Source: Verrucomicrobia bacterium S94
GTDB lineage: Bacteria > Verrucomicrobiota > Kiritimatiellia > Kiritimatiellales > Pontiellaceae
NCBI GenBank assembly: GCA_004299845.1
Contig: CP036201.1
Span: 3,968,001-4,032,000, forward strand
DNA: 64,000 nt
Reading direction: 5' to 3'
A model generated the notes under the pieces. It did no database searches and was not told the origin of the DNA. It was given only the letters and a program-made list of their open reading frames with translations. How positions within the stretch are numbered: the stretch's first letter is position 1; every line of letters starts with the position of its first letter. Both the position numbers and the translations under genes were made by a program. Positions 8,106 to 63,618 of the stretch are shown piece after piece.

Positions 8106-10745
8106 TCAGGGCTCTTCCACTTTGAGCCGGAAATAACGGGCCGGGCTGTTGTCGGTTGGTCCCTGTTTCAGTACCGGTGAATTTGTGGCCGGGAATGAGG
8201 TCGGCGTGGGGGCCCATTCGGTCCACACTGTCAGATTGGTGCTGGTTTCGATGTCGAAGTTCAGTCCGGCAAGATGGGTGTAGGAGAAAGACAGGGTATT
8301 GTCTTCCGCCTGGAAGGTGTACTGCAGCCGATCTTCCGGATTGTTCGGATCGGTGCGGGTAATCCGTTCCCGGTCGTTGCTGACTCCGTCGCCGTCCGGA
8401 TCCTCATCAGGTCCGCCGGGATCGGAGGACTGCCGGGCACGCCACTCTTCATAGGTCGGGTACAGATGAAGTTCCTGTTCAATCCAGTCGCTGATCACCT
8501 GCTCGGCAACCTCGTCGCGGAGATTTGTTCCAATGGGCGGCATACGTTGAAACGGCGCTGTCCCGGCCATACGGTGAAGAACCACGGAGTTGGCAGGATC
8601 TCCCGGAACAGCAAAACAGGCATTGGTGTTGCCGTTATCAAAACTGATAGAGCCGTTGTAGATTTCCGCATTTACAAACGGGTCTGACATCAGACCGTTC
8701 CAGGCCGATGGAGCTGAGCCATCCGGGCGATGGCAGTAAGAGCAGTTTACGTCGAAATAAGAACGCACACGTGCGTGCAGGCTCTGGCTTTCATCATCGA
8801 TCGGGACGATGCGGGGAAGTGATGTGACCTCTTCGACGGTATTGCTGAAGTAACCGGCCAGTTCGAGTTGTGCGATCTGATTATCCGTTATATTTCCGAA
8901 TGTATAGTCGCGGTTCAGTTGCCGGGTATTGAAAGAGAGTGCATAGCCGCCGGCTTTGGTGTGACATTGCAGGCACTGGCTTCGGCTGGGATAACTCCAG
9001 GTCTGCAGGGAGGTACTGTTGTCGGGCCGGGTGATGGTATAGGTTTCATTGGTTCCCTCAGGAGGAACCAGGAAGGCTTCTGTGCCGGCTTCGTTCCATT
9101 TATAGGTTATGCCGTAGATTCCGTCATCGGTTTTTACAATAAAGCGGGTTTCCAGTCTTTTCCAGGCGCCGGGCTCTCTGTAGTCCGTCCGGAGATCGAA
9201 GTGTTTGATCCATACTGCACCGGTTGGAAGTTTCCAATTATCGTCCCGGGCCCAGCCGGCGCGATCATTGGGATCGGGGAACGAAAACCAGCGTTGTTTT
9301 TCAGCGTTATCGGACCAGAGGTCGGCATTCGTATCGTATGCAACGAAGCCGGGATTCGGCGTGAGCGATGCCACATCGGAAAAAGCGCCGGTTTCCGTCA
9401 GGGTTTCCGGCAGATTACCGCTTACCGGACCGCTTGCAGAAAGCTGTTTGATCTTTCCCTCGTCATAATCAGCCGCGAGAATTTCCTGTGTCGCGGGATG
9501 TTCGCCGAAGGCTACGAGAAAGGATTCTGTGGCGATCACTTCTTCGGTGAAGACGCCGGAGCCTTCTTCCGTTTCGGTCAGTGCCCATACGCGGCCATCA
9601 TACATTTCGGAAAAGATATATTTCCCGAACAGCTGAGGAAGACTTTCTCCGCGATACATGCGACCGCCGATAACACTGTATGAACCGGATTCATGAGGGT
9701 ATTCAAAAATGGGATCAACCGGGTTGAATCCGGCCGGGGGTGTCGGTGCTCCGGGCCTGTCGATGGTGCCTTCCAGATAATCCCACCCGCAGTTGTCACC
9801 TTTATTAACCAGATGGATCTCTTCCCGTGAGTTTTCGCCGACGTCTCCGACAAATAACCGTCCGGTGAGTGGGTCGAAACCCATGCGCCAAGGGCTGCGC
9901 AGGCCGGTGGCCCAGAATTCAGTTCGGACATTTCCTGTCAGTGGAATTCCATTATAATGCGTTGCACCTACAAAAGGGTTATCCGGCGGAATGCTGTAAC
10001 GGGCGATGCCGTTATCGCGGATAACAGCATCCGTTCCCTGATCATCGTGCGGATTGGGTTCGAGGCTTCCCGGTTTTTTATCGACATCAATCCGGATGAT
10101 TCCCGAGAAAAAATTCAATTCAATATTCTGGCTGTTTTCATAGCGGTCATCTACTTCGCCTTCATCACCGAGGGGGACATAAAGGTAGCCGTCCTCCGGT
10201 CCGAAATGCAGGTCTCCTCCATTATGGTTGGGGCTGTCATCCGGTTGGTCGATAAGAACGTATTCGGTTGAAAGATCTACGGTTCCGGAACCATCCCAGT
10301 CGACGGGGGCGGTAAATCGGCTCAGTCTGTCCCGGCGAGGCAAAGAGGTGGTGTAGAAAACATAGAAATAACGATTGCTTTGAAAGTTCGGATGAAAAGC
10401 AAGTCCAAGAAGACCTTGATCGTAAGAGATGCCAATTCGGCTGGAAAGGTCTGCAAATGTCGATTTCTGCGGTGTGCCATTCAGATCGGTGATGCGTATG
10501 ATTTTTCCTTTCTGCTGAACAACGAAAAGCATATTGGTTTCGCCGGGCGGGCTGACAATGGCAACGGGTTGTTCAAACGGGGAGAGCGTAGGAAAGGCAT
10601 CGGTAAACGTGAAGTTATTGTATTGAGGGGCTTCTGCCGGCAGGTTCAGCGTGGTATTGGCTTCGCGCACAAGCTGTGCGGCAGCATCTCCGGTGCAGAT
10701 ACCGATCAGGATAAGCAACAGTATTGATCTGTTGGGGATATTCAT
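8106..10745 (-). CDS. PQQ-type sugar dehydrogenase propeller fused to c-haem region
   Basis: An 879-residue exported protein. After a signal peptide (1-24) comes a glucose/sorbosone dehydrogenase beta-propeller (about 40-430, with LGDEGEVDDRYENSQN and GDVGENSREEI). A second region contains two c-haem sites: CLQCH at 591-595 and CSYCH at 668-672. The tail has a calcium-binding DPDGDGVSND repeat (about 785) and a beta-rich end domain. It is predicted to oxidise a sugar in the periplasm and pass electrons to haem c; PQQ use is known for the family, not shown here. The two halves are usually separate proteins. A TGAGG site precedes the ATG at 10743-10745. Confidence 0.85.
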   Translation of the reverse strand: MNIPNRSILLLILIGICTGDAAAQLVREANTTLNLPAEAPQYNNFTFTDAFPTLSPFEQPVAIVSPPGETNMLFVVQQKGKIIRITDLNGTPQKSTFADLSSRIGISYDQGLLGLAFHPNFQSNRYFYVFYTTSLPRRDRLSRFTAPVDWDGSGTVDLSTEYVLIDQPDDSPNHNGGDLHFGPEDGYLYVPLGDEGEVDDRYENSQNIELNFFSGIIRIDVDKKPGSLEPNPHDDQGTDAVIRDNGIARYSIPPDNPFVGATHYNGIPLTGNVRTEFWATGLRSPWRMGFDPLTGRLFVGDVGENSREEIHLVNKGDNCGWDYLEGTIDRPGAPTPPAGFNPVDPIFEYPHESGSYSVIGGRMYRGESLPQLFGKYIFSEMYDGRVWALTETEEGSGVFTEEVIATESFLVAFGEHPATQEILAADYDEGKIKQLSASGPVSGNLPETLTETGAFSDVASLTPNPGFVAYDTNADLWSDNAEKQRWFSFPDPNDRAGWARDDNWKLPTGAVWIKHFDLRTDYREPGAWKRLETRFIVKTDDGIYGITYKWNEAGTEAFLVPPEGTNETYTITRPDNSTSLQTWSYPSRSQCLQCHTKAGGYALSFNTRQLNRDYTFGNITDNQIAQLELAGYFSNTVEEVTSLPRIVPIDDESQSLHARVRSYFDVNCSYCHRPDGSAPSAWNGLMSDPFVNAEIYNGSISFDNGNTNACFAVPGDPANSVVLHRMAGTAPFQRMPPIGTNLRDEVAEQVISDWIEQELHLYPTYEEWRARQSSDPGGPDEDPDGDGVSNDRERITRTDPNNPEDRLQYTFQAEDNTLSFSYTHLAGLNFDIETSTNLTVWTEWAPTPTSFPATNSPVLKQGPTDNSPARYFRLKVEEP

Positions 10746-40182: not shown

Positions 40183-42953
40183 ATGCATTTTATACTTAAA
40201 ATTCTGTGTCTGGTTGTGGCGGTTTTTCCGGTTTTGTGTCCGGCCATTGACAGTATTGAAACCGGGGAAACCCTTATGAAGGTGCGGTCCGCCGCAGCCG
40301 TAAACGGATCGTTTATTGTGGGCAGCAGTTATGATGGCGATCTGCTGGCCTATACATACGATGGTTCCAGACTTTGGAAAACAGCGCTTTCCGGTGGAAT
40401 TATGAATAACGATCTCTGGTGTGCTGATCTGGATGGCGATGGCATTGATGAGGTGCTGGCGGCGAATTCCGACGGATCGGTTTACTGTGTGAATTATAAG
40501 GGTGCTGTACTCTGGCGGTTTCAGCCGAATGAAGTGCCGATGATTTCGGTCTGTACCGTTCGTGATTCATCGGGAGCGGTTTATGTGGCCTGTGGGGGGA
40601 ATGATAAAAATTTTTACTGGCTCTCCGGAGAGGGTACGCTTTTGAAGACCGTGCCGTCGGCGGGATATGACACGGTTATTCAGCCCAATAAAAAGTGGAT
40701 TGATGACGGAACGCTTGAAAAGAATGTGCATGTTGTGAATTTTCTGAGGCCCATCCGGCAGCCGGACGGGTCTGATGTGCTGCTGTTGAATGCTGTGCTG
40801 ACCAATGCGGATCAGAGTTCAATGCTTTTCCGGTTCCGGCCGTTGGCGGTCCGGCCTTTCAGGGCGCGTAAATTGGGGTATGGGTACGGCCCGGTTGCTG
40901 ATTTGCGGGTGAATGGCGGGGAGTTGCTGATCGGTACGTCGGGGATGAATAAAACCGTTGATTTCATTCGTTTTAATCTGGCGTCGGAAAAGGTGAAAAA
41001 ACTGAATCTGCCCTCCACGAAAAAAAGACCGGGGTTTGGTTATCGTGTGGCCCAAGCTGCTCGGCTGCCGGAAGGGAGCGGATTTGCATATCTGGTGAAG
41101 ATCGGATCGGAAATGCTGCTGGTGCCGGATTCGATGGATGTGAAAAAAATCGAAACGATCTCGTGCAAATATTCATTTAATGACTTGTGGAAAGATCCGG
41201 TGACCGGAAAGCTGCTGCTGGCCAGTGCGCAGAGTGGAGGCAGTTGCATTCATGTTATTGATCTGACGGACGGGGATTGGAGAGCTGCCTATGAACAGCT
41301 CGACCCGCCCGGGAAAATTCAGGACATTCTCGACAATACGGCAGAACTGAAAAGGCAGCTGGCGGTATTTGAAAAACCGGAGTGGGAACGCGATCCTGTG
41401 ACGGCCTACCTGATGTCACCGCCGAAGCCGTCGGAAAAGACGAAAGCGTTTCAGGCCAAATATGATAATCCTGTGTTTCTTGGCCATGTATTTATGAGGG
41501 GGCGGAGGACTGGGACCGTTCCGGTCTGGGAAATGCGGCGTTTGAGCAGGCGCGGGATAACCGAAAAACCTATAATCTGTCGCAGGACGAAATCGTGGAG
41601 AAGGCGCTGCGGGGGATGAATGAAAACGGCCTTTGCATGTGGGGCGGGCACGGGGTTGATCCGTTTTACTATAATCCGGAAACCCTGTGGAAAATCATGA
41701 AGGGAACCCGTGGGAAAAAGTCCGTATTCATCTGGCCGGAACTGACCATTCTGCATAAAAAGGAGTTTCCGTTTGCGGTAGAGCATCTCTTTGCACCTTT
41801 TGCAGAACATGCCCGGAAATATAACTCCACATTATACCTTAGAAGTAAGCATAATTTCTGGTTGGGGAACATTTACCGGCCGGAGTGGTCGCGTTTTCTT
41901 TCCGGGGAGTTTGCCGATGTGGCTGTGCCGTCGATGGAGGAGACGCAGGATCAGGCGCAGGATCTCAGTCTAGCCGGACGCCTGGGGCTGTGGAGCAGCG
42001 GGGTGTTCAGCAGCTGGGGAACGCGGTGTGCGCGGGATAATCCGAGTTTTACGCGCAACCGGCAGTTTTCACATCAGGAGCTGCCGAATCATTTTCTGCG
42101 CAATGCGGTGTATCATGTAGCCTATGGGGCCACGTACATTAACAACTTCAGTATCAGTTCGGCTTATTCGGATTACATGAATATTTTGTGGGAGCTGATC
42201 GGCAGCGGAGCGCTTTATATTCCGAAGCGGGAGGAGATCGTCAGTTTTAATCCGGTTCATCTGGGTATGATTACACCGGATGAGCGCTATATGCGTGAAG
42301 CGCATTCAACGACGACCAGCATTCGGTATGATGAAGCGTTTCATCCGGAAAATCCGTATGTTTTCAGCCGGCTTGACGGGGCCTGGTCGGGCGCGAAAGT
42401 GACGGACTGGGATTTTTCAACCTATGCGGCCGGTGTGAAGGACCGTCGCCAGAATTTTCTTGCTCCCTATCCAAACGGTATGGTGCTGATCACACCGCCG
42501 CAAACCGGCGTTTTTGCGGATCCGAATGCGCCGCGCGGCACATTGGCTGAGCATCTCCATCCCATGTATGGAAATCTGCTGAAGGAGCATATCACCAATG
42601 GCCGGCACTATTTTTCTTCCGATGGAAAAGAGACCTTTTCCGCCGATGTCTATGCGGAACGGGTGAGGGCCGAGATTGAGGCCGGGACGGAAAAAATGCC
42701 GCTGACGGTATCCGGCGGTGTCGCCTGGGTGTGTGCTCAGACGGCGCCGCATCATCTGCGTCTGACACTGATTGACAGTGGTTATCTGAACCCGTCGCGC
42801 AAAACGGCGAAGGTGGAGTTTCATGCGGTGAATCCGCTGAAGATTACCGATCTGCTGAGCGGGGAGCAGATTGCTCCGGGGAGAGTGTGTGAGGTGGATG
42901 TTCCCTGCGGTCTTTTCCGTTTCCTGGATATTGAACTGACGCAGCCGCTATAA
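40183..42953 (+). pseudogene. Frameshifted exported beta-propeller plus C-terminal domain protein
   Basis: Two overlapping frames make one protein of about 920 residues. Frame 1 (ATG 40183) has a signal peptide (1-22) and a propeller-like region with WCADLDGDGIDEVLAANSDGSVYCV. It loses sense at about 41493. Frame 2 continues smoothly as EGAEDWDRSGLGNAAF and runs to 42953; adding one T to the TTT at 41491-41493 restores the whole reading frame. The C-terminal half (about 440-920) has GGHGVDPFYYNPETLW and other glycoside-hydrolase-like segments. The propeller-plus-catalytic layout recalls GH150 lambda-carrageenases, but this is a weak resemblance. It could be a sequencing error rather than a pseudogene. 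Confidence 0.65.
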
Positions 42954-53201: not shown

Positions 53202-54083
53202 CTACCAGTGGATGCGGGGCGTGATATCCACCGGAAGGGGATCCGGCGGTGGCGGAGTGCCCTGTTCCACATCTTTCCGGACGGCAGATGGAGCGCGGCC
53301 GAAAATCCGGGTGAAGCGGCGTGAAAAATAGAGCGGGTTTTCGAAGCCGCAGCGCAGAGCAATTTCTTTTACGGAGAGGTTGGAACGGGTCAGGAGCACC
53401 AGAGCCAACTGCATACGCATCAGGGTTCCTGTATATACCGGGGGATAGCCGACGGAGCGGCTGAAGAGTCGGCACAGATGTTTGGATGAGCAGTTTGCTG
53501 AGCGTGCGATTTCGGCAAGGGTAAATTGGGCCAATGGGTTTTCATCAATTTGTTGACGCATCCATTTGAGTGCGCGCCGAACAGGTTCAGGCCGGTCGGG
53601 TTGAAAGCTTTCCCATTCCGCTTTTCCCGATTCAAAGCAGGTATTGATGAGCGATTCGACCAGCATACAGTCGCGATGTCCCGGGGGTTCGGCCGGCCAG
53701 TTCCGATGCTCATAGATATGTTTCATAATGTGCCGGAAAAGACTGACGCTCAGGTCGGGCGGGGTGTGGTGAATGCGCGGCCAGTTTTGCGGCGGAGGCC
53801 AGTCGGAGGGCAGGTGTGAGGCCCCGAAATGAAAAAAGGCGTGGCGGGTGATTTCAACGGGATCCCATTCATAGGTTTCTTCCGTTCCGGGCAGTCCGAA
53901 AATAAGCGAACCCGGGGGAGCCGGGTGGGCCTGACCATTGGCGATATATGTCGCCTGGCCGGAGAGAATGTATACGACTTCAAAATCGGTCAGCACACGG
54001 TTTTCCAGATGTTCTCCCGGCTGATAGAGAATCTCTCCGCCATAAAGGTAGTCCAGTTTTAAGTAGTCCGGTTGGGATTGCAT
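53202..54083 (-). CDS. AraC-family transcriptional regulator
   Basis: About 293 residues: an N-terminal cupin sensor (about 20-130) and two C-terminal helix-turn-helix motifs (about 195-290), with SSKHLCRLFSRSVGYPP and NPLYFSRRFTRIFG. The family typically activates carbohydrate genes. I take the ATG at 54081-54083; the frame could begin at the TTG at 54108. Neither has a clear ribosome-binding site. It is divergent from the UroD-like gene that heads the xylan cluster and is its likely activator. Confidence 0.88.
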   Translation of the reverse strand: MQSQPDYLKLDYLYGGEILYQPGEHLENRVLTDFEVVYILSGQATYIANGQAHPAPPGSLIFGLPGTEETYEWDPVEITRHAFFHFGASHLPSDWPPPQNWPRIHHTPPDLSVSLFRHIMKHIYEHRNWPAEPPGHRDCMLVESLINTCFESGKAEWESFQPDRPEPVRRALKWMRQQIDENPLAQFTLAEIARSANCSSKHLCRLFSRSVGYPPVYTGTLMRMQLALVLLTRSNLSVKEIALRCGFENPLYFSRRFTRIFGRAPSAVRKDVEQGTPPPPDPLPVDITPRIHW

Positions 54084-54183
54084 ATGCGAATATAGTGCAT
54101 GTTTATGCAACTCAGGTCAATGGGCGTAATCCGTAGAACATGTTTAATTATAGTCCACTGAATAATCAGGGGAGTAAATAAAG
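54084..54183. promoter_or_regulatory. Divergent control region araC-type/uroD-like
   Basis: Contains TTGCATATG ... TTATGCAA as an imperfect dyad (about 54078-54110) and a -10-like TATAGT (about 54148-54153) without a good -35, the pattern of an activator-dependent promoter for the plus-strand cluster. Confidence 0.45.
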
Positions 54184-55449
54184 ATGACAGGAAAAGAGCG
54201 GCTTAAGGCGACAATACGACATGTTGAGCCGGATCGGGTTTGTGTCGATTTCGGAAGTAATGCTGTAACAGGCATGCATGTGCGCACGGTGGAGCTGCTG
54301 CGTGGGTTCTACGGTTTGGAAAAGAAGCCGGTGAAAGTGTGTGAGCCGTATCAGATGCTCGGCGAAATTGAAGATGATCTCCGTGAACGGCTGGGAATTG
54401 ATACGGAGCCGCTGGTTGGGCATGGGACCATTTTCGGTTTTCGTAATGAGGATTGGAAGCTGTGGACGGCTCCATGGGGCCAGGACGTGCTGGTGCCGGC
54501 GGATTTTCAGGTTACATGTGATGCCCATGGGGATACGCTGATATTTCCGCAGGGAGACCGTTCTGCGCCGCCCAGTGGCCGGATGCCGGCGACGGGCTAT
54601 TTTTTTGACTGCATTGTACGTCAGCCGGAAATGGATGAGGAGAACCTGAGTCCTGAAGACAATCTGGAAGAATTCAGTGTCTTAGATGAAGAGGCGTTAA
54701 ACTGGTATCAGTCGGAAGCCATTCGGCTGGAGGGGAGTTCCAGAGGGATCGTGGCCTCAACGCCGGGTTCGGCGCTGGGCGATATCGCGCTCGTACCCGG
54801 TCCGTTTCTCAAATATCCCAAGGGAATCCGTGATATTTCTGAATGGTATATATCAACAGTGAGCCGTCAGGATTATATTCATGAGGTATTTCGTCAGCAG
54901 ACGGATATCGCCATTGAAAATATGCGCCTGTTGAAAGAAGTGACGGGGGATCTGATCGATGTGGTCTTTACCTGTGGTACCGACTTCGGAACACAGACAT
55001 CGCAGTTCTGTTCCGCCGATACCTATGAAGAGCTCTGGGCTCCCTATTACCGGCGGATGAATGACTGGATTCATGAAAACACGAGCTGGAAAACCTTCAA
55101 ACACTGCTGCGGCGCGGTTTATCCGCTTATCGCGCATTTTGTTGATTCCGGATTTGATATTCTGAATCCGGTTCAGTGTTCTGCGGCGGATATGGATCCG
55201 CAACGGCTGAAGGATGAATTCGGGGACCGTATTGTTTTCTGGGGCGGGGGTGTGGATACGCAGAAAACGCTTCCGTTCGGAACGCCGGAAGAGGTGTATC
55301 GGGAAGTCCGGGAACGGATTGATATTTTTGCGCCGGGCGGCGGGTTTGTTTTTGATGCTATCCATAACGTACAGGCGAATACCCCGATCGAAAATGTAGT
55401 GGCGATGTTCAAGGCATTGGAGGATGCGCGTTCTCTTGTTTACTTATGA
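54184..55449 (+). CDS. UroD-like (MtaA/CmuA-related) protein
   Basis: A 421-residue TIM-barrel protein of the uroporphyrinogen decarboxylase/corrinoid methyltransferase superfamily. KHCCG carries the His-x-Cys pair used for zinc in methyl-CoM methyltransferase MtaA, but the third ligand (Cys in APGCG of MtaA) is Gly here, in APGGGFVFDAIHN. Such divergent members are common beside glycoside hydrolases, and the reaction is unknown. GGGGAG lies before the ATG. The oxygenase gene starts 4 bases before its stop, so the two are translationally coupled. Confidence 0.78.
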   Translation: MTGKERLKATIRHVEPDRVCVDFGSNAVTGMHVRTVELLRGFYGLEKKPVKVCEPYQMLGEIEDDLRERLGIDTEPLVGHGTIFGFRNEDWKLWTAPWGQDVLVPADFQVTCDAHGDTLIFPQGDRSAPPSGRMPATGYFFDCIVRQPEMDEENLSPEDNLEEFSVLDEEALNWYQSEAIRLEGSSRGIVASTPGSALGDIALVPGPFLKYPKGIRDISEWYISTVSRQDYIHEVFRQQTDIAIENMRLLKEVTGDLIDVVFTCGTDFGTQTSQFCSADTYEELWAPYYRRMNDWIHENTSWKTFKHCCGAVYPLIAHFVDSGFDILNPVQCSAADMDPQRLKDEFGDRIVFWGGGVDTQKTLPFGTPEEVYREVRERIDIFAPGGGFVFDAIHNVQANTPIENVVAMFKALEDARSLVYL

Positions 55450-56513
55450 AATCAGTTCAGGAAATGACATCACGGTTTAACTATGATCTTTGCGGACCTA
55501 ATAGTGAGGCCGCTGTCAGAAAGCGGCTGGCTGAAGCGGTCTGGTATCAGACCCCGGTGGCGCGTGATGCGATGCGTAAATTGCTCGAGCGTCGGAATGG
55601 TCCGGGGATGCGCGATTGCTTCATCTGGTTTGGGCTGATGGCCGGCTGCGCCTGGCTGACGGTTTTCCTTTGGGGCAGCTGGCCGGCGTTTTTTCCGTAT
55701 ATGCTCTATGCGGTTCTTTACGGTTCCACCTCAGACTCACGCTGGCATGAATCGAGCCATGGGACTGTTTTTAAAACCGACTGGTTGAATAATGTGCTTT
55801 ATGAGGTTTCCTCGTTCATGGTTATGCGTGAATCCACCGTCTGGCGCTGGAGTCATACGAGGCATCATTCGGATACGATTGTGGTTGGCCGGGATCCGGA
55901 AATTGCAGTTCCCCGTCCGGTTCAGTTATTCAGGTTTATCCTTAACTTTACCGGGCTGCCCGCTGTATATGCTTATGTTCGTAAAATTCTGAAGCACAGT
56001 ACCGGAAATCTTTTTGATGATGAGCGGACGTATATCCCCGAATATGAGCATGGCCGTATCATTTGGAAAGCACGGGCCGTGCTGCTGATCTATGCGGGAT
56101 GCCTGGGTTGCAGTTGGTATTATCAGACTGTTTTTCCGCTGCTCTTTATCGGGCTTCCGAATCTGGCGGGGGCGTGGCTGATGCCCGTTTACGGTTTAAC
56201 TCAGCATACCGGGCTGGCGGAAAATGTGCTGGATCACCGGAAGAACTGCCGTACGGTACAAATGAATCGCGTTAACCGGTTTCTGTACTGGAACATGAAC
56301 TATCATATTGAACATCACATGTTTCCGCAGGTGCCGTATTACAACCTTCCGAAGCTGCACGAGCTGGTTCGTCACGACATGCCGTCCCCTATACCGGGCT
56401 TTGGGATGCCTGGCGGGAAATCATTCCGGCGGTTATCCGGCAGAGCAGGGATCCCGAATACTATGTTGAGCGGGAGGTTCCTGAGCCGGCGGCTGATAAC
56501 ACGGAATCCATGA
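55446..56513 (+). CDS. Membrane fatty-acid-desaturase-type oxygenase (MocD-like), C-terminus frameshifted
   Basis: A 355-residue di-iron membrane enzyme with all histidine boxes: H101-H105 (RWHESSHG), H137-H140-H141 (HTRHH), His254 and H287-H290-H291 (NYHIEHH). Such enzymes desaturate or hydroxylate; MocD, with the Rieske protein MocE, demethylates a methyl ether in rhizopine breakdown. The last 40 or so residues are out of frame: inserting one C in the CCCC at 56386-56389 gives LWDAWREIIPAVIRQ and then reads directly into the Rieske frame, with no stop between. The true product may be a single fusion of about 470 residues. Confidence 0.78.
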   Translation: MKSVQEMTSRFNYDLCGPNSEAAVRKRLAEAVWYQTPVARDAMRKLLERRNGPGMRDCFIWFGLMAGCAWLTVFLWGSWPAFFPYMLYAVLYGSTSDSRWHESSHGTVFKTDWLNNVLYEVSSFMVMRESTVWRWSHTRHHSDTIVVGRDPEIAVPRPVQLFRFILNFTGLPAVYAYVRKILKHSTGNLFDDERTYIPEYEHGRIIWKARAVLLIYAGCLGCSWYYQTVFPLLFIGLPNLAGAWLMPVYGLTQHTGLAENVLDHRKNCRTVQMNRVNRFLYWNMNYHIEHHMFPQVPYYNLPKLHELVRHDMPSPIPGFGMPGGKSFRRLSGRAGIPNTMLSGRFLSRRLITRNP

Positions 56514-56860
56514 TACGCATAGATTCGAATGAAACACCCGATGAGGAAGGGTGGGTAAAGGTTGGCCATGCGGACCTGCTGTTGCCGGAAGACGTGCTGC
56601 GTTTCGATCATGATGAAAAAACCTATGCGGTATACCGGACGGCTGAGGGTCTGTTTTATGCCAGTCAGGGTATCTGTTCCCATGGTCAGACTCACCTGGC
56701 ATCCGGTAAGGTGATCGGGTGTCAGATCGAGTGCCCAAAACATAATGGACGGTTTGATGTACGCGATGGATCGGTTCAGCGTAAACCGCCGAAAAACAGT
56801 CTGCAAATCTTTCCGGTGAAGTTGGATCAGGGAGACATACATATCAAGGTGACGGGATAA
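56510..56860 (+). CDS. Rieske [2Fe-2S] ferredoxin (MocE-like)
   Basis: A 116-residue Rieske domain with Cys56-x-His58 (CSHG) and Cys75-x-x-His78 (CPKH). It should donate electrons to the preceding membrane oxygenase. The ATG at 56510 overlaps the preceding ORF by 4 bases and has no good ribosome-binding site; the frame is continuous with the corrected C-terminus of the oxygenase, so this may be the C-terminal domain of a fusion. The stop shares a base with the GH120 start. Confidence 0.82.
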
Positions 56861-59073
56861 TGATGAATCAAACTGTAAAAAAAAGAAGTCTGCTGATCAT
56901 GGCGGTTTGTGCCGTATCGGCAGGAAGTGCTGTTGAATACCATGTTGCTAAAGATGGCAGAAATACCAATAGCGGAACATTAAACGAGCCCTTTCTGACG
57001 ATACAGCATGCGGCAGAACAGGCAATGCCGGGCGATATCATTACGGTTCATGAGGGGATTTACCGGGAGGAGATTAATCCTCCGCGGGGCGGAACATCAG
57101 AGGAAACCCGTATCGTCTACCGTGCCGCGAAAGGCGAAGACGTTGTGATTAAAGGTTCGGAAGTCGCCAAAGGCTGGACGCATGTGAAGGGCGATGTATG
57201 GAAACTGGTTATTGCGAATCCCGAGGCGTTTTTCGGTACTTTCAATCCGTTTCGCACCCAGATTTACGGAGACTGGTATAAACATCTGGGCCGACTGAAT
57301 CATGTGGGTCAGGTTTATCTCAACGGGCACTGGCTCACTGAAGCAGCGAGCCTTGAGGACGTCATGAAGCCGACGGGTGAGACGGCTCTTTGGTTTACCA
57401 ATGACAACCGGTATCCCAAAGACCGTTACGGTCCGTCTATCGATCTGCTCGGTTTTACTTTAAATGGTGACAGCGCAGCTTTCATAAAAGCGGTTGATAC
57501 TTCTGAACGGAAGGGGGCCGTAAATGGACATCATAAAGGCAAAGAACAGATCAGAGCCGCCCGTGCCGGCCAGTGGCTTAAATATGAAAACATCAACTTT
57601 GGAAAAGGTTCTTCCCGGATTACATTTCAGGCGCTCACTGAAACCGTAGGCGGTAGAATTGAAGTTCGTCTTGATGGACCGCAGGGTAAGCTTCTCGGAA
57701 CCGGAACCATTGACTGTACAGGCAGCAGCTGGTCGGGCTGGCGGGAGTTTTCCGCTGATATCAAAGAAACCGGCGGAATTCACACCCTCTGCCTGGTTTT
57801 CAAAGACAAGCCCGAACCGGAACCCAATGCGGAGGAAGTGATCATCTGGGCGCAGTTTAAGGACGTGAACCCCAACGAAGAGCTTGTGGAAATCAACGCC
57901 CGCGAAACGGTCTTCTATCCCCGGAAAACAGGCATTAATTATATCACCGTTTCCGGATTTACACTGGAGCAGGCCAGCCCCAACTGGGCTCCGCCCACTG
58001 CGGAGCAGGTTGGACTGATCGGCACGCACTGGAGCAAAGGGTGGATTATTGAAAACAACACGATCCGCTATTCCTCCTGCACCGGCATTACGCTGGGAAA
58101 ATATGGTGATGAAATGGATAACCGGGCGATGTCGGCGGAAGGCTATGTGGGCACCATAAAACGAGCCCACACCAACGGCTGGGCAAAAGGAAATATAGGC
58201 AGTCACATCGTGCGCAACAACAGCGTCTCCTATTGTGAACAGGCCGGGATCGTCGGAAGCATGGGCGCCGCCTTCAGCCGGATTATCGGCAATGAAGTCT
58301 TCCAGATTCACCAACGAGGACTTTTCAGCGGAGCCGAGATGGCCGGCATTAAATTTCATGCGGCGATCGATACGCTCATTGCGGATAATCATGTCTATGC
58401 ATGCAACCGGGGTATGTGGCTCGACTGGATGACGCAGGGCACCCGCGTCAGTCAGAATCTGTTCCACGGAAATATGAGCGAAGATCTCTGGCTTGAAGTC
58501 AACCATGGGCCCTGTGTGATTGACAACAACTTCTTCCTCTCCCGCACCTCGATTAATGACTGGTCGCAGGGCAGTGCATTTATTCACAACTTTTTTGGCG
58601 GAAAGCTGAAACTGGAACCGCAAAGACGTGTAACTCCCTATCATAAAGCACACTCTACAGAGATTGCGGGTATGGATCATGGTTACGGAGGCGACAACCG
58701 TTTCTTCAACAATATTTTTTCCGGGCCCAACGCACTGGATGCATATAAGGACAGTAAACTTCCGATTATTTCGGACAGTAATCTGATGCAGGAGTTCGAT
58801 TACGACATAAAAATAAAAAGAGACCGAGAACAGGTATTCCTCGAAATCACATGGCCGTCCCTTGCAAAGCTGCCCGGAACCTCTGTCGTCACAACCGGAA
58901 AGCTCGGAAATACAGCCATTTCCAAGTTGCCATACAGGAATTTCAACGGATTGGATCTGATTGTGAATAATGATTATTGGGGCAACTCCCGTAAAACCAA
59001 GTCGCCGACCGTCGGCCCGGTTCAAAAGATCAGGACAGGCCGCACCGAACTGAAGGTGTGGCCCAAAAAATAA
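56860..59073 (+). CDS. GH120-type beta-xylosidase with inserted CBM6-like domain, copy 1
   Basis: A 737-residue exported protein: signal peptide (about 1-24), right-handed beta-helix with the XylC-like start EYHVAKDG and [11 protein letters not shown], a CBM6-like insert (about 222-330), then the rest of the helix. The catalytic pair of Thermoanaerobacterium XylC (Asp382, Glu405) is matched by Asp522 in [12 protein letters not shown] and Glu546 in LEVNHGP, one residue further apart. It should release xylose from xylo-oligosaccharides in the periplasm. The family call is from recalled similarity to XylC. The ATG overlaps the Rieske stop by one base. Confidence 0.82.
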
Positions 59074-59227: not shown

Positions 59228-61486
59228 ATGATGACCAGACTTAACATCCTGATACTTACCATGATTGCCGCAACAACCTATTCGGCGGAGTATCATGTAT
59301 CTACTCAGGGAAATGATGCTTACTCCGGCACAAAAAGCAGACCCTTCAAAACCATATCAAAAGGAGCGGAAGTTGCTCAGCCGGGAGATACGGTTATCGT
59401 TCATGAAGGCGTCTATCGCGAGGAGATCAATCCTCCGCGCGGCGGTACATCAGATAAGCAACGCATTGTTTATCGGGCCGCCAAAGGTGAAAACGTTGTC
59501 ATCAAAGGATCCGAAGTCGTCAAAGGCTGGACGCATGTGGAAGGCGACGTATGGAAACTTGTCATCGAAAATCCCGAGAGCTTCTTCGGAGCATTCAATC
59601 CGTTTCGTACGCAGATTTATGGCGACTGGTATCGCCATAAAGGTCGATTAAATCATGTGGGACAAGTTTATCTCAATGGTCATTGGTTGAGCGAGGCCTC
59701 AAGCCTGGAGGAGGTTATGAAACCGGCCGGGGAAACCGCTTTGTGGTATACCAATGACCAGCGTTATCCAACCGATCGCTATGGTCCCTCGGTTGACCTG
59801 CTTAAACTCGAATTAAATGGGGAGAAGGCAGCAGCGTTGAATGCGGTGGATTTTACCGATCGAAAAGGCGCATGGACCGGAACGCATAAAGGGGATGATT
59901 ACATTAAAGCCGCCCGGGAGGGGCATTGGCTGAAGTATGAAGAGGTTAATTTCGGAAAAAAGACCTCTCAAATCACTTTTACCTGCATGACCGAATCCAT
60001 CGGTGGACTTATTGAAATCCGTCTTGACAGTCAACAGGGCCAACTGCTTGGAATCTGTCCGGTTGATTATACGGGATCCAGGTGGACAGGCTGGCGGGAG
60101 TTTTCCGCAGACATCAAAGAAACCGGCGGAATTCACACCCTCTGCCTGGTTTTCAAAGACAAGCCCGAACCGGAACCCAATGCGGAGGAAGTGATCATCT
60201 GGGCGCAGTTTAAGGACGTGAACCCCAACGAAGAGCTTGTGGAAATCAACGCTCGCGAAACGGTCTTCTATCCCCGGAAAACAGGCATTAATTACATCAC
60301 CGTTTCCGGATTTACACTGGAGCATGGGAGCCCCAACTGGGCTCCGCCCACTGCGGAGCAGGTTGGACTGATCGGCACGCACTGGAGCAAAGGGTGGATT
60401 ATTGAAAACAACACGATCCGCTATTCCTCCTGCACCGGCATTACGCTGGGAAAATATGGTGATGAAATGGATAACCGGGCGATGTCGGCGGAAGGCTATG
60501 TGGGCACCATAAAACGAGCCCACACCAACGGCTGGGCAAAAGGAAATATAGGCAGTCACATCGTGCGCAACAACAGCGTCTCCTATTGTGAACAGGCCGG
60601 GATCGTCGGAAGCATGGGCGCCGCCTTCAGCCGGATTACCGGCAATGAAGTCTTCCAGATTCATCGCCGGGGGCTTTTCAGCGGAGCCGAGATGGCCGGC
60701 ATTAAATTTCATGCGGCGATCGATACGCTCATTGCGGATAATCATGTCTATGCGTGTAACCGGGGCTTATGGCTTGACTGGATGACGCAGGGCACCCGCG
60801 TCAGTCAGAATCTGTTCCACGGAAATATGAGTGAAGATTTATTTCTGGAGGTTAATCATGGGCCCTGTGTAATCGACAATAACCTGTTCCTGTCCAGCAC
60901 ATCTGTTAGCGACTGGTCGCAGGGCAGTGCTTTCATTCATAACCTGATTGCAGGCAATGTGTGGGTCTCTCCTCAGGAGCGCCAAACGCCCTACCACCCT
61001 GCGCACTCCACCGAACTGGCCGGTCTCGATAAAATATATGGAGGGGATAACCGCTTTTTTAACAACATCTTTGCGGGCCGGGACGCCCTTATAAATTATA
61101 GAAAAGGCGAACTGCCGTTATTCACCGGAGCCAACCTGTTTTTGAATAAAGCCACTCCGCTTGATCCGGAAAAGGACGGTGCGGTGATGGCGGACTTTGA
61201 TCCTCAGATTAATGTCGTGAGAGATGGTAATGATGCATATGTCGAAATGGTTTTTCCGAAAGTAAACGGCTTAAAAACGGAGATCATTACTACGGCTGAT
61301 CTGGGTGAAGCGGCCATCCCGAAACTCCCTTATAAGAATTATGATGAAGCAGACCTCATCGTGAATAATGACTATTGGGGCAACCCGCGTAAAACAAAGG
61401 CGCCTTCGGCTGGTCCCTTTGAAGATTTTAAACCGGGTGCTGTTAAGCTGAAAGTCTGGCCGAAAAATAAAACCATTACGAAATGA
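59228..61486 (+). CDS. GH120-type beta-xylosidase with CBM6-like insert, copy 2
   Basis: A 752-residue protein with signal peptide (about 1-20) and the same layout as copy 1. Catalytic residues are Asp517 and Glu541. The CBM6-like insert is at about 217-325. Between 60089 and 60830 the DNA is colinear with 57736-58477 of copy 1 with roughly 19 differences by my hand count, while the flanks differ much more, a sign of gene conversion. The next gene overlaps the stop if started at 61483. Confidence 0.82.
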
Positions 61487-61512
61487 AAACCTATATTGAC
61501 GGACACTTATGT

Positions 61513-63618
61513 ATGAAATTATTTCGACGGAAATTAATGGTCTTAACGCTGGCCGCTGCTGCGTGCTGCAGCGGGCGTCCTGCCACCGAACAAAAACCTT
61601 TAGCGGATGAGGATGGTTATAAGCTGTGGCTTCGTTATGCCAATCCCGGCGAAGCAGCATCGTCTTATAGAAAACAGGTTAAGCAGCTTCATATTGAAGG
61701 TAACTCGGCGACCAGTAAGATTATTCAAAAGGAGTTGAAGGCTGCCATAAAGTGCATGCTGGGCCATGACGTAAAGCTGTCCGGTGATTCGCTTCTAAGC
61801 GGCTCCGTGCTGATCGGCACCCCTCAAAATTCTTCAGTGATCCGAAATTTAAAATTAACAAAAGAGCTCGAACAACTGGGCGGTGAAGGCTTCATTATCC
61901 GGTCAACAAGCATTAATGAAAAGCGTGTCATCATCATTGCAGCGAACACTGATATCGGAACGCTCTACGGCGGTTACCATTTCCTGCGACTGATGCAGAC
62001 GGGAAAGCCCATTGATTCGCTGGATATTGCCGAGGCCCCCGCGCTTCAGCTGCGGATGATGAACCACTGGGACCGGCTTGATGGCCGTATTGAACGAGGC
62101 TATGCAGGACGCTCGTTGTGGCAGTGGGATGAACTGCCCGATACGTTAAGCCCCCGTTATTCAGACTATGCCCGTGCCTGTGCCTCGATCGGGATCAACG
62201 CAGCGGCCGTCAATAACGTTAACGCCGACCCGCTTATCCTTTCAGAAGAATATCTCGAAAAAGTCGCCGCACTGGCAGATCTTTGGCGGCCGTATGGTGT
62301 GCGGATGTACCTGAGTGTAAACTTTGCTTCGCCCTTGGCGCTGGACGGATTGAAGACGGCCGATCCGCTGGATAAGAACGTTATTGCGTGGTGGAAAAGC
62401 AAGGCTGATGAAATCTACAAGCGTATTCCCGATTTCGGAGGTTTTGTGGTTAAAGCGGATTCTGAGGGACAACCCGGCCCGAAAACCTACGGACGTTCCC
62501 ATGCCGAAGGGGCAAACATGCTGGCCGATGCGCTGGCTCCGCATAACGGTATCGTGCTGTGGCGCGCTTTTATTTACGACACCGAGGTGGATCCGGATCG
62601 TACGAAACGGGCTTATCTTGAGTTTACCCGGCTTGATGGCCGGTTCCGCCCGAATGTCTCGGTTCAGGTAAAAAACGGCACCTTGGACTTCCAACCTCGC
62701 GAACCGTTCCATCCGCTGTTCGGCGGGCTGAAAAAGACATCGGTTATTGCAGAAATCCAGGCGTCTCAGGAATATCTCGGGCAGGCAAAACATCTCGTCT
62801 ATCACGGACCTATATGGAAAGAGTTTTTGGATTCCGATACATATGCCAAAGGAAAAGGATCAACGGTTTCCAAGGTTTTAGCCGGTGAAGTATATCCGAA
62901 CCGCATAACCGGACTGGTATCTGTCACCAACCCCGGACTGGATCCTAACTGGTGCGGGCACCACTTTTCTCAGGCAAACTGGTTTGCTTTCGGCCGTTTG
63001 GCCTGGAACCCCGATTTAACGGCGGAAGCCATTGCGGACGAATGGATCCGTATGACGTTTACGAATGACGATAACGCTGTTTCCGCGATTCGCGATATGA
63101 TGATGGGGTCGTATGAAACCTTTGTCCGATATTCTATGCCCCTCGGACTGAACGGGTTGATCGGCGGCGATCATTACGCTCCGGAGCCCTGGCACAAACA
63201 GGGCGGCATGCCGGCATGGTCGGCGGACTATTATCACAATGCATCCACCGCAGGCATCGGCTATGACCGCACCCGCAGAGGAAATCATGCGGTTGATCAA
63301 TACCATCGGCCGGTCAGTGATCTGTTTAACGACCCGGAAACCTGCCCTGAAAAGTTTCTGCTCTGGTTCCATTACCTGCCATGGGATTACACCATGAAAT
63401 CTGGCAGAACATTATGGGAAGAGCTGCAGTCAACGTATCAGCAAGGAGCTGCAGAAGCTGCTGAAATGCAGAAAGTATGGCAATCGCTGAAAGGAAAGAT
63501 TGACGCACGCAGACATAAAGAAGTGGCCGATCGGCTGGCTGTTCAGGTAGCCGATTCGGCAAAATGGAGAGATAAGGTCTTAGCCTACTTCGGCCGGTTT
63601 GCGGAGCAGGATAAATAA
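61513..63618 (+). CDS. aguA: GH67 alpha-glucuronidase
   Basis: A 701-residue (4-O-methyl)glucuronidase that removes glucuronate from the non-reducing end of xylo-oligosaccharides. Conserved segments include MMNHWDRLDGRIERGYAGRS, LSVNFASP and NWFAFGRLAWNPD. Catalytic candidates are Glu318 (SEGQPG), Asp392 (LDFQPREP) and Glu420 (SQEYLG); the 28-residue Asp-Glu gap equals Cellvibrio D365/E393. An export signal MKLFRRKLMVLTLAAAA favours the ATG at 61513 over 61483. It sits between the GH120 copies. Confidence 0.93.
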   Translation: MKLFRRKLMVLTLAAAACCSGRPATEQKPLADEDGYKLWLRYANPGEAASSYRKQVKQLHIEGNSATSKIIQKELKAAIKCMLGHDVKLSGDSLLSGSVLIGTPQNSSVIRNLKLTKELEQLGGEGFIIRSTSINEKRVIIIAANTDIGTLYGGYHFLRLMQTGKPIDSLDIAEAPALQLRMMNHWDRLDGRIERGYAGRSLWQWDELPDTLSPRYSDYARACASIGINAAAVNNVNADPLILSEEYLEKVAALADLWRPYGVRMYLSVNFASPLALDGLKTADPLDKNVIAWWKSKADEIYKRIPDFGGFVVKADSEGQPGPKTYGRSHAEGANMLADALAPHNGIVLWRAFIYDTEVDPDRTKRAYLEFTRLDGRFRPNVSVQVKNGTLDFQPREPFHPLFGGLKKTSVIAEIQASQEYLGQAKHLVYHGPIWKEFLDSDTYAKGKGSTVSKVLAGEVYPNRITGLVSVTNPGLDPNWCGHHFSQANWFAFGRLAWNPDLTAEAIADEWIRMTFTNDDNAVSAIRDMMMGSYETFVRYSMPLGLNGLIGGDHYAPEPWHKQGGMPAWSADYYHNASTAGIGYDRTRRGNHAVDQYHRPVSDLFNDPETCPEKFLLWFHYLPWDYTMKSGRTLWEELQSTYQQGAAEAAEMQKVWQSLKGKIDARRHKEVADRLAVQVADSAKWRDKVLAYFGRFAEQDK

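Follow-up and report, generated by a model that had tools for sequence, protein, structure and literature searches.

The window (the whole 64,000-nucleotide stretch of DNA that was analysed) carries a membrane oxygenase and a Rieske ferredoxin that are annotated as two overlapping genes. The features of the locus are as follows:

53202-54110, reverse strand: AraC-type regulator, divergent
54184-55449, forward strand: URO-D/MtaA-CmuA-like gene (Pfam URO-D, 49 bits), with a 4-base overlap with the oxygenase start
55446-56513, forward strand: annotated oxygenase ORF, 355 aa
55446-56389, forward strand: desaturase-type (membrane di-iron) oxygenase part (Pfam FA_desaturase), in the frame of the annotated ORF until the C run
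56386-56389, forward strand: C run, the site of the frame break, one base short compared with relatives
56390-56509, forward strand: conserved C-terminal helix of the oxygenase and linker, readable in the Rieske frame only
56390-56513, forward strand: out-of-frame tail of the annotated ORF, without conservation
56510-56860, forward strand: Rieske [2Fe-2S] ferredoxin domain with the motif C-x-H...C-x-x-H, annotated as a separate ORF of 116 aa
56860-59073 and 59228-61486, forward strand: two GH120-like/beta-helix paralogues
61483-63618, forward strand: GH67 alpha-glucuronidase, which serves as context for the substrate proposed below

Domain searches defined the two parts. The FA_desaturase domain covers residues 78-314 of the annotated ORF (139 bits, cut-off 29.7) and the oxygenase contains three histidine boxes (HESSH, HTRHH and HIEHH), which identifies it as a MocD-like, desaturase-type oxygenase. 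The downstream part belongs to the Rieske family PF00355 (60.3 bits, cut-off 20.3), with the cluster ligands present. Of the NCBIfam models, the MocE family TIGR02377 fits it best, with 102 bits under a cut-off of 136.15, and relatives L004 (120.2) and L009 (114.3) also fall under this cut-off; the domain is therefore termed MocE-like rather than a family member. No AlkB model was among the NCBIfam matches (E 0.001), so membership of the AlkB alkane monooxygenases was rejected. The phage family search matched no phage family, and among the best 50 matches listed in a PDB fold search, good matches were found for the Rieske half only.

The two annotated ORFs share the bases ATGA at their ends (56510-56513), and the Rieske frame is free of stops from 56312 up to its stop codon at 56858-56860. 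From 56390 this frame reads YTGLWDAWREIIPAVIRQSRDPEYYVEREVPEP, followed by the linker and the Rieske domain; it thereby carries into the Rieske domain the family C-terminus that is missing from the annotated ORF past 56386-56389. Over the 33 residues past the break, the fusion frame shares a mean of 15.4/33 positions with fused relatives (range 0-22) and the annotated tail a mean of 2.2/33 with the same relatives (range 1-5), in a comparison that took in the 25 of 36 fused relatives caught by a residue pattern. Of the columns past the break, 21 are invariant in the 36 fused relatives, and the fusion frame keeps every one; the oxygenase part keeps 77 of the 80 covered invariant family columns. 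A forced gapped alignment of the annotated tail matched 7 of 10 covered invariant columns, which was rejected as an artefact of scattered placement. These data bear out a prior sequence-only reading of the locus, in which the annotated frame turned to nonsense after about 56386 while another frame supplied the family C-terminus and ran without a stop into the Rieske ORF. That reading attributed the break to one missing C and a +1 frame; the assembly is indeed one base short, but the fusion frame is -1 (= +2) relative to the annotated ORF.

Structure prediction for the fused relative L017 (mean pLDDT 78.5) shows the segment missing from the annotated ORF as a helix (residues 320-336); after it, a low-confidence linker leads to the Rieske fold. 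An in-frame ATG lies in the linker just 5' of the Rieske domain in the window (56510) and, at a different column, in the same-genus orthologue (G014/L111); it is absent in the two-domain relatives L004 and L017. In the window and G014 this codon could start a free Rieske protein.

To place the gene among its relatives, GTDB genomes were scanned for homologues, and the best 80 of 261 confirmed homologous stretches were kept. Oxygenase and Rieske domain form one in-frame chain in 36 of these 80 loci, which are the closest ones (51-64% identity), as the one-chain homologues looked for on the sequence-only reading. In the other 44 of the best 80 the oxygenase frame stops past the conserved C-terminus, and a Rieske motif ORF follows within 1500 bases in 39 of the 44 (within 300 bases in 37). 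Homologues that end near the equivalent of 56513 with a separate Rieske gene, which the sequence-only reading had named as evidence against a fusion, do occur, but in a more distant, mainly proteobacterial branch and not in the gene's own clade.

The fused relatives were labelled two- or three-domain by tail length. Seven of the 36 have a tail of ∼160-190 residues (two domains) and 29 a longer one; the long tails of L014 and L021 are shorter than the others (264 and 292 residues) and are cut off where the stored DNA stops. In one long-tailed locus, L009 (4001-6259), the third domain was identified as an NqrF-type reductase (TIGR01941, 346 bits, cut-off 295). Many fused relatives appear to carry an NqrF-like reductase as well, and these would probably be self-sufficient enzymes.

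A 71-row tree, built from selected loci together with same-genus paralogues and the partial orthologue from G014, places the window gene inside a 39-row clade with an SH-aLRT support of 100. The other 38 rows of this clade, 30 labelled three-domain and 8 two-domain, are all fused, so the fused state is most simply ancestral for it. By placement the window gene therefore belongs to the one-chain oxygenase-Rieske clade, with its own frame interrupted in the assembly by the base lacking at 56386-56389. Fusion is also seen in eight same-genus paralogues that are more distant (L086, L087, L089, L090, L099, L100, L088 and L091); among minus-strand paralogue loci, L084, L088 and L091 were used and the others left out. 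The two other family members of the genome itself, L002 and L003, are unfused. Fusions were found in records labelled Verrucomicrobiota, Planctomycetota, Acidobacteriota, Bacteroidota and Chloroflexota.

The same-genus orthologue in G014 provides further evidence. It is split over two contig ends, with ∼100 residues in between unseen. Its 5' part is 73% identical to the window gene over 182 residues, and its 3' part runs from HMFPQVPYYNLP via the conserved C-terminus into the Rieske domain in one frame throughout. Because synonymous sites are saturated, pN/pS was calculated as raw proportions. The two stretches compared 5' of the break gave values of 0.22 and 0.25. For the first 33 codons past it, the fusion frame gave 0.26 and the annotated frame, in which G014 has stops, gave 1.0; over 40 codons, which include part of the linker, the fusion frame gave 0.35. 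In the Rieske part, differences between the two genes by codon position number 21, 16 and 65 over 105 codons (third positions 65/102). After the break, selection follows the fusion frame and not the annotated frame. The combination of fused relatives, an entirely fused clade, an orthologue that reads through and selection on the fusion frame establishes that the oxygenase-Rieske fusion is real, ancient and not rare.

It is accordingly highly probable that 55446-56860 is a single two-domain gene of ∼471 residues (a MocD-like membrane di-iron oxygenase, a flexible linker and a C-terminal MocE-like Rieske ferredoxin), cut by the loss of one base in the C run, most likely through a consensus (homopolymer) error. 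The first part of this statement agrees with the single fused gene broken by a one-base loss that had been proposed from the sequence, and is carried by the fused clade, the G014 read-through and the pN/pS contrast.

The origin of the loss was addressed by searching for similar breaks by translated comparison in samples of this genome (464 kb, including the window) and of three same-genus genomes (800, 400 and 400 kb); a break was retained where the frames of the target itself close on either side of it. Over 79.6 kb of comparable sequence in this genome, 7 breaks were flagged and 4 accepted, while none was kept in 118.6, 76.9 and 45.5 kb of the three others (two candidates in the first were traced to the query side). 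The accepted breaks lie at ∼41497 in the window, at 9164 and 19184 in L121 and at 2366 in L132. At each of them a G run has lost one base, in a gene that is 62-90% identical to its relative on both sides, and the case at 56386-56389 is a fifth loss, in a C run. The chance of all four falling in this genome is 0.004, and that of four random losses all lying within G/C runs of at least 3 is 2e-5. For instance, a lambda-carrageenase in the window is cut into 40183-41619 and 41595-42953 by the loss at ∼41497; its relative in G027 is one ORF, with 81-87% identity on both sides of the break. Three of the 7 flagged breaks were dropped by judgement; had they stayed in, the difference between the genomes would only be larger. 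Two of them are in L125, where both ORFs are doubtful and one looks like tRNA antisense. The third, at 18437 in L132, involves two bases, and its first piece seems to precede a start.

According to a passage of PMC8812927, residual homopolymer errors are the commonest error in long-read-only assemblies. The one-contig genome studied here is probably such an assembly. Other assembly statistics were less telling. At 95 per Mb, against 125-192 in the others, this genome has the fewest G/C runs of 6; its GC content is also the lowest, however, which makes this weak evidence. Sampled ORF lengths do not stand out as short (median 322, against 329 and 374), which counts against the error reading. A looser first census of unsorted internal stops gave 17 in this genome, against 11 and 0 in two others, and no weight is placed on these counts. 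Taken together, the one-base loss in the C run is most likely a consensus error rather than a mutation. Assembly error was thus the better of the options offered by the sequence-only reading, given four similar losses here and none in the three same-genus genomes. Single bases seem to go missing from G/C runs in this assembly, and its other 'split' genes should therefore be distrusted.

A real, recent frameshift is judged unlikely. It would have left either a young pseudogene in this strain or a split into an altered-tail oxygenase and a separate Rieske protein starting at the ATG at 56510, for which the ATGA overlap would permit coupled restart. Homopolymers are favoured by real slippage too, and isolates of Pontiella, probably the genus of this bacterium, are O2-intolerant according to a passage of PMC7356697, so that an O2-dependent enzyme could face weak selection. 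A second family member is also disrupted: L002 has an in-frame TGA at 1786 (G000:C1:1745229-1746092) where the same-genus L101 (78% DNA identity) has TGG, which makes two of the three family members of the genome. This TGA is a nonsense substitution, whether error or real, and is no indel; real decay of O2-dependent enzymes in an anaerobe is therefore possible. Against a recent mutation, the window gene shows no decay past the one base, with all 21 invariant columns after the break kept, the segment that would be lost is a structured helix in the L017 prediction, and the same kind of one-base loss occurs in other conserved genes of the assembly.

That the oxygenase and the Rieske protein are truly encoded by two genes, in the manner of rhizobial-type MocD/MocE, is very improbable. 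This organisation does have precedent in the 44 unfused loci among the best 80 of 261; in 39 of the 44 a Rieske motif ORF lies downstream. As annotated, however, the oxygenase would lack a C-terminus that even separate-gene relatives keep and would stand alone in an otherwise wholly fused clade; this reading was rejected because the clade and the pN/pS of 1.0 in the annotated frame contradict it.

Programmed -1 frameshifting that yields a short and a fused product, the other option of the sequence-only reading, is scarcely credible and was rejected: the two frames overlap and a single-tRNA slip on a proline codon is conceivable, but none of the 36 fused relatives shifts there, the G014 orthologue reads straight through, and a canonical two-tRNA slippery heptamer was not seen at the site. 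The downstream fold scored z -1.45, with 13/200 shuffles as good.

Genomic neighborhood analysis provided clues to function for the one-chain enzyme. The overlapping URO-D/MtaA-CmuA-like gene is a probable operon partner of the oxygenase, and homologues of it adjoin fused relatives L015, L011 and L017 at 51-60% identity. More broadly, this gene type recurs by fusions (L015, L011, L017, L025, L086-L089 and L099), at ∼30% identity for the distant same-genus paralogues. The genes next to fused relatives often belong to sugar catabolism: the 126 neighbour proteins collected for the 36 fused loci include the AraC-type HTH_18 domain (14), xylose isomerase-like proteins (7), aldo/keto reductases (6), URO-D (5) and GFO/IDH/MocA (5). 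For the unfused loci, 19 of the 44 were covered, and 11 of their 75 neighbours contain the Reductase_C domain of flavoprotein reductases. In the window, the tandem pair at 56860-59073 and 59228-61486 encodes similar GH120-insertion/CBM6/beta-helix proteins and is followed by the GH67 alpha-glucuronidase. Homologues of the window's GH67 or GH120-like proteins were not found in the flanks that were searched, which counts against a fixed link with xylan.

A likely role is the oxidative demethylation of an O-methylated sugar. An NADH-dependent flavin reductase would pass electrons to the tethered Rieske cluster, which would in turn reduce the histidine-rich di-iron site. This site would then activate O2 and hydroxylate a methyl group, probably an O-methyl on a sugar or inositol derivative, and the group would be released as formaldehyde. 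The two-domain form would need a separate reductase; the one fused in L009 is NqrF-like, and the full NqrF of this genome (1544498-1545706, 618 bits) is a candidate only. The suggestion of 4-O-methylglucuronate as substrate stems from the URO-D/MtaA-like gene upstream and the GH120-like proteins and GH67 alpha-glucuronidase downstream. Pontiella isolates, O2-intolerant as noted, are possibly adapted to low oxygen according to a passage of PMC7356697. A fuller scenario can be put forward, although as a whole it is speculative and rather doubtful. The widespread one-chain di-iron oxygenase-Rieske clade, mostly with an NqrF-like reductase too, would comprise self-sufficient sugar O-demethylases. 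In this genus, the two-domain form would strip the O-methyl of 4-O-methylglucuronic acid freed from xylan by the adjoining GH67, using traces of oxygen although the bacterium is otherwise anaerobic, and the URO-D/MtaA-like partner would deal with the methyl or C1 product. As single-polypeptide enzymes, three-domain members would be handy for testing what MocD-type oxygenases do.

MocD and MocE act, with MocF, in rhizopine catabolism. The window gene resembles this system in pairing a desaturase-type oxygenase with a Rieske ferredoxin whose best NCBIfam model is the MocE family, and flavoprotein reductases occur beside unfused relatives (11 of the 75 neighbour proteins at the 19 loci covered, out of 44). 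It differs in that D and E form one chain and in that the MocE cut-off is missed (102 against 136 bits). The proposed function has a possible parallel in the P450 oxidative demethylase of 6-O-methyl-D-galactose from marine bacteria, which, according to a passage of PMC10033563, is O2-dependent and removes the methyl as formaldehyde; it may do the same job of sugar O-methyl removal, but its family is unrelated to that of the window gene.

Closer in architecture are the AlkB proteins described in a passage of PMC8918992, which are rubredoxin-fused or arranged as ferredoxin reductase-ferredoxin-AlkB. Like these, the window gene is a membrane di-iron oxygenase with a built-in electron donor, but this donor is a C-terminal Rieske ferredoxin and no AlkB model matched. 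The cytochrome b5-fused desaturases covered in the same passage likewise tether an electron carrier to a desaturase, where the window gene has a Rieske [2Fe-2S] domain instead of cytochrome b5. That 2022 review also repeats in a passage, citing a 2001 paper, that no ferredoxin-fused desaturase had been found (PMC8918992). The expectation in the sequence-only reading that a built-in Rieske donor would be unusual fits this statement but is wrong for genomes, with 36 of the best 80 loci and 8 same-genus paralogues fused. Searches of open-licence PMC papers on rhizopine mocD/mocE, 4-O-methylglucuronate demethylation and desaturase-Rieske fusions turned up no description of the Rieske fusion. Built-in donors are already known for AlkB and cytochrome b5 desaturases; what appears to be new here is the Rieske fusion, while the frameshift is most likely an artefact. 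The lasting result is therefore a desaturase-type oxygenase with a built-in Rieske donor, many relatives of which probably have a built-in reductase too.
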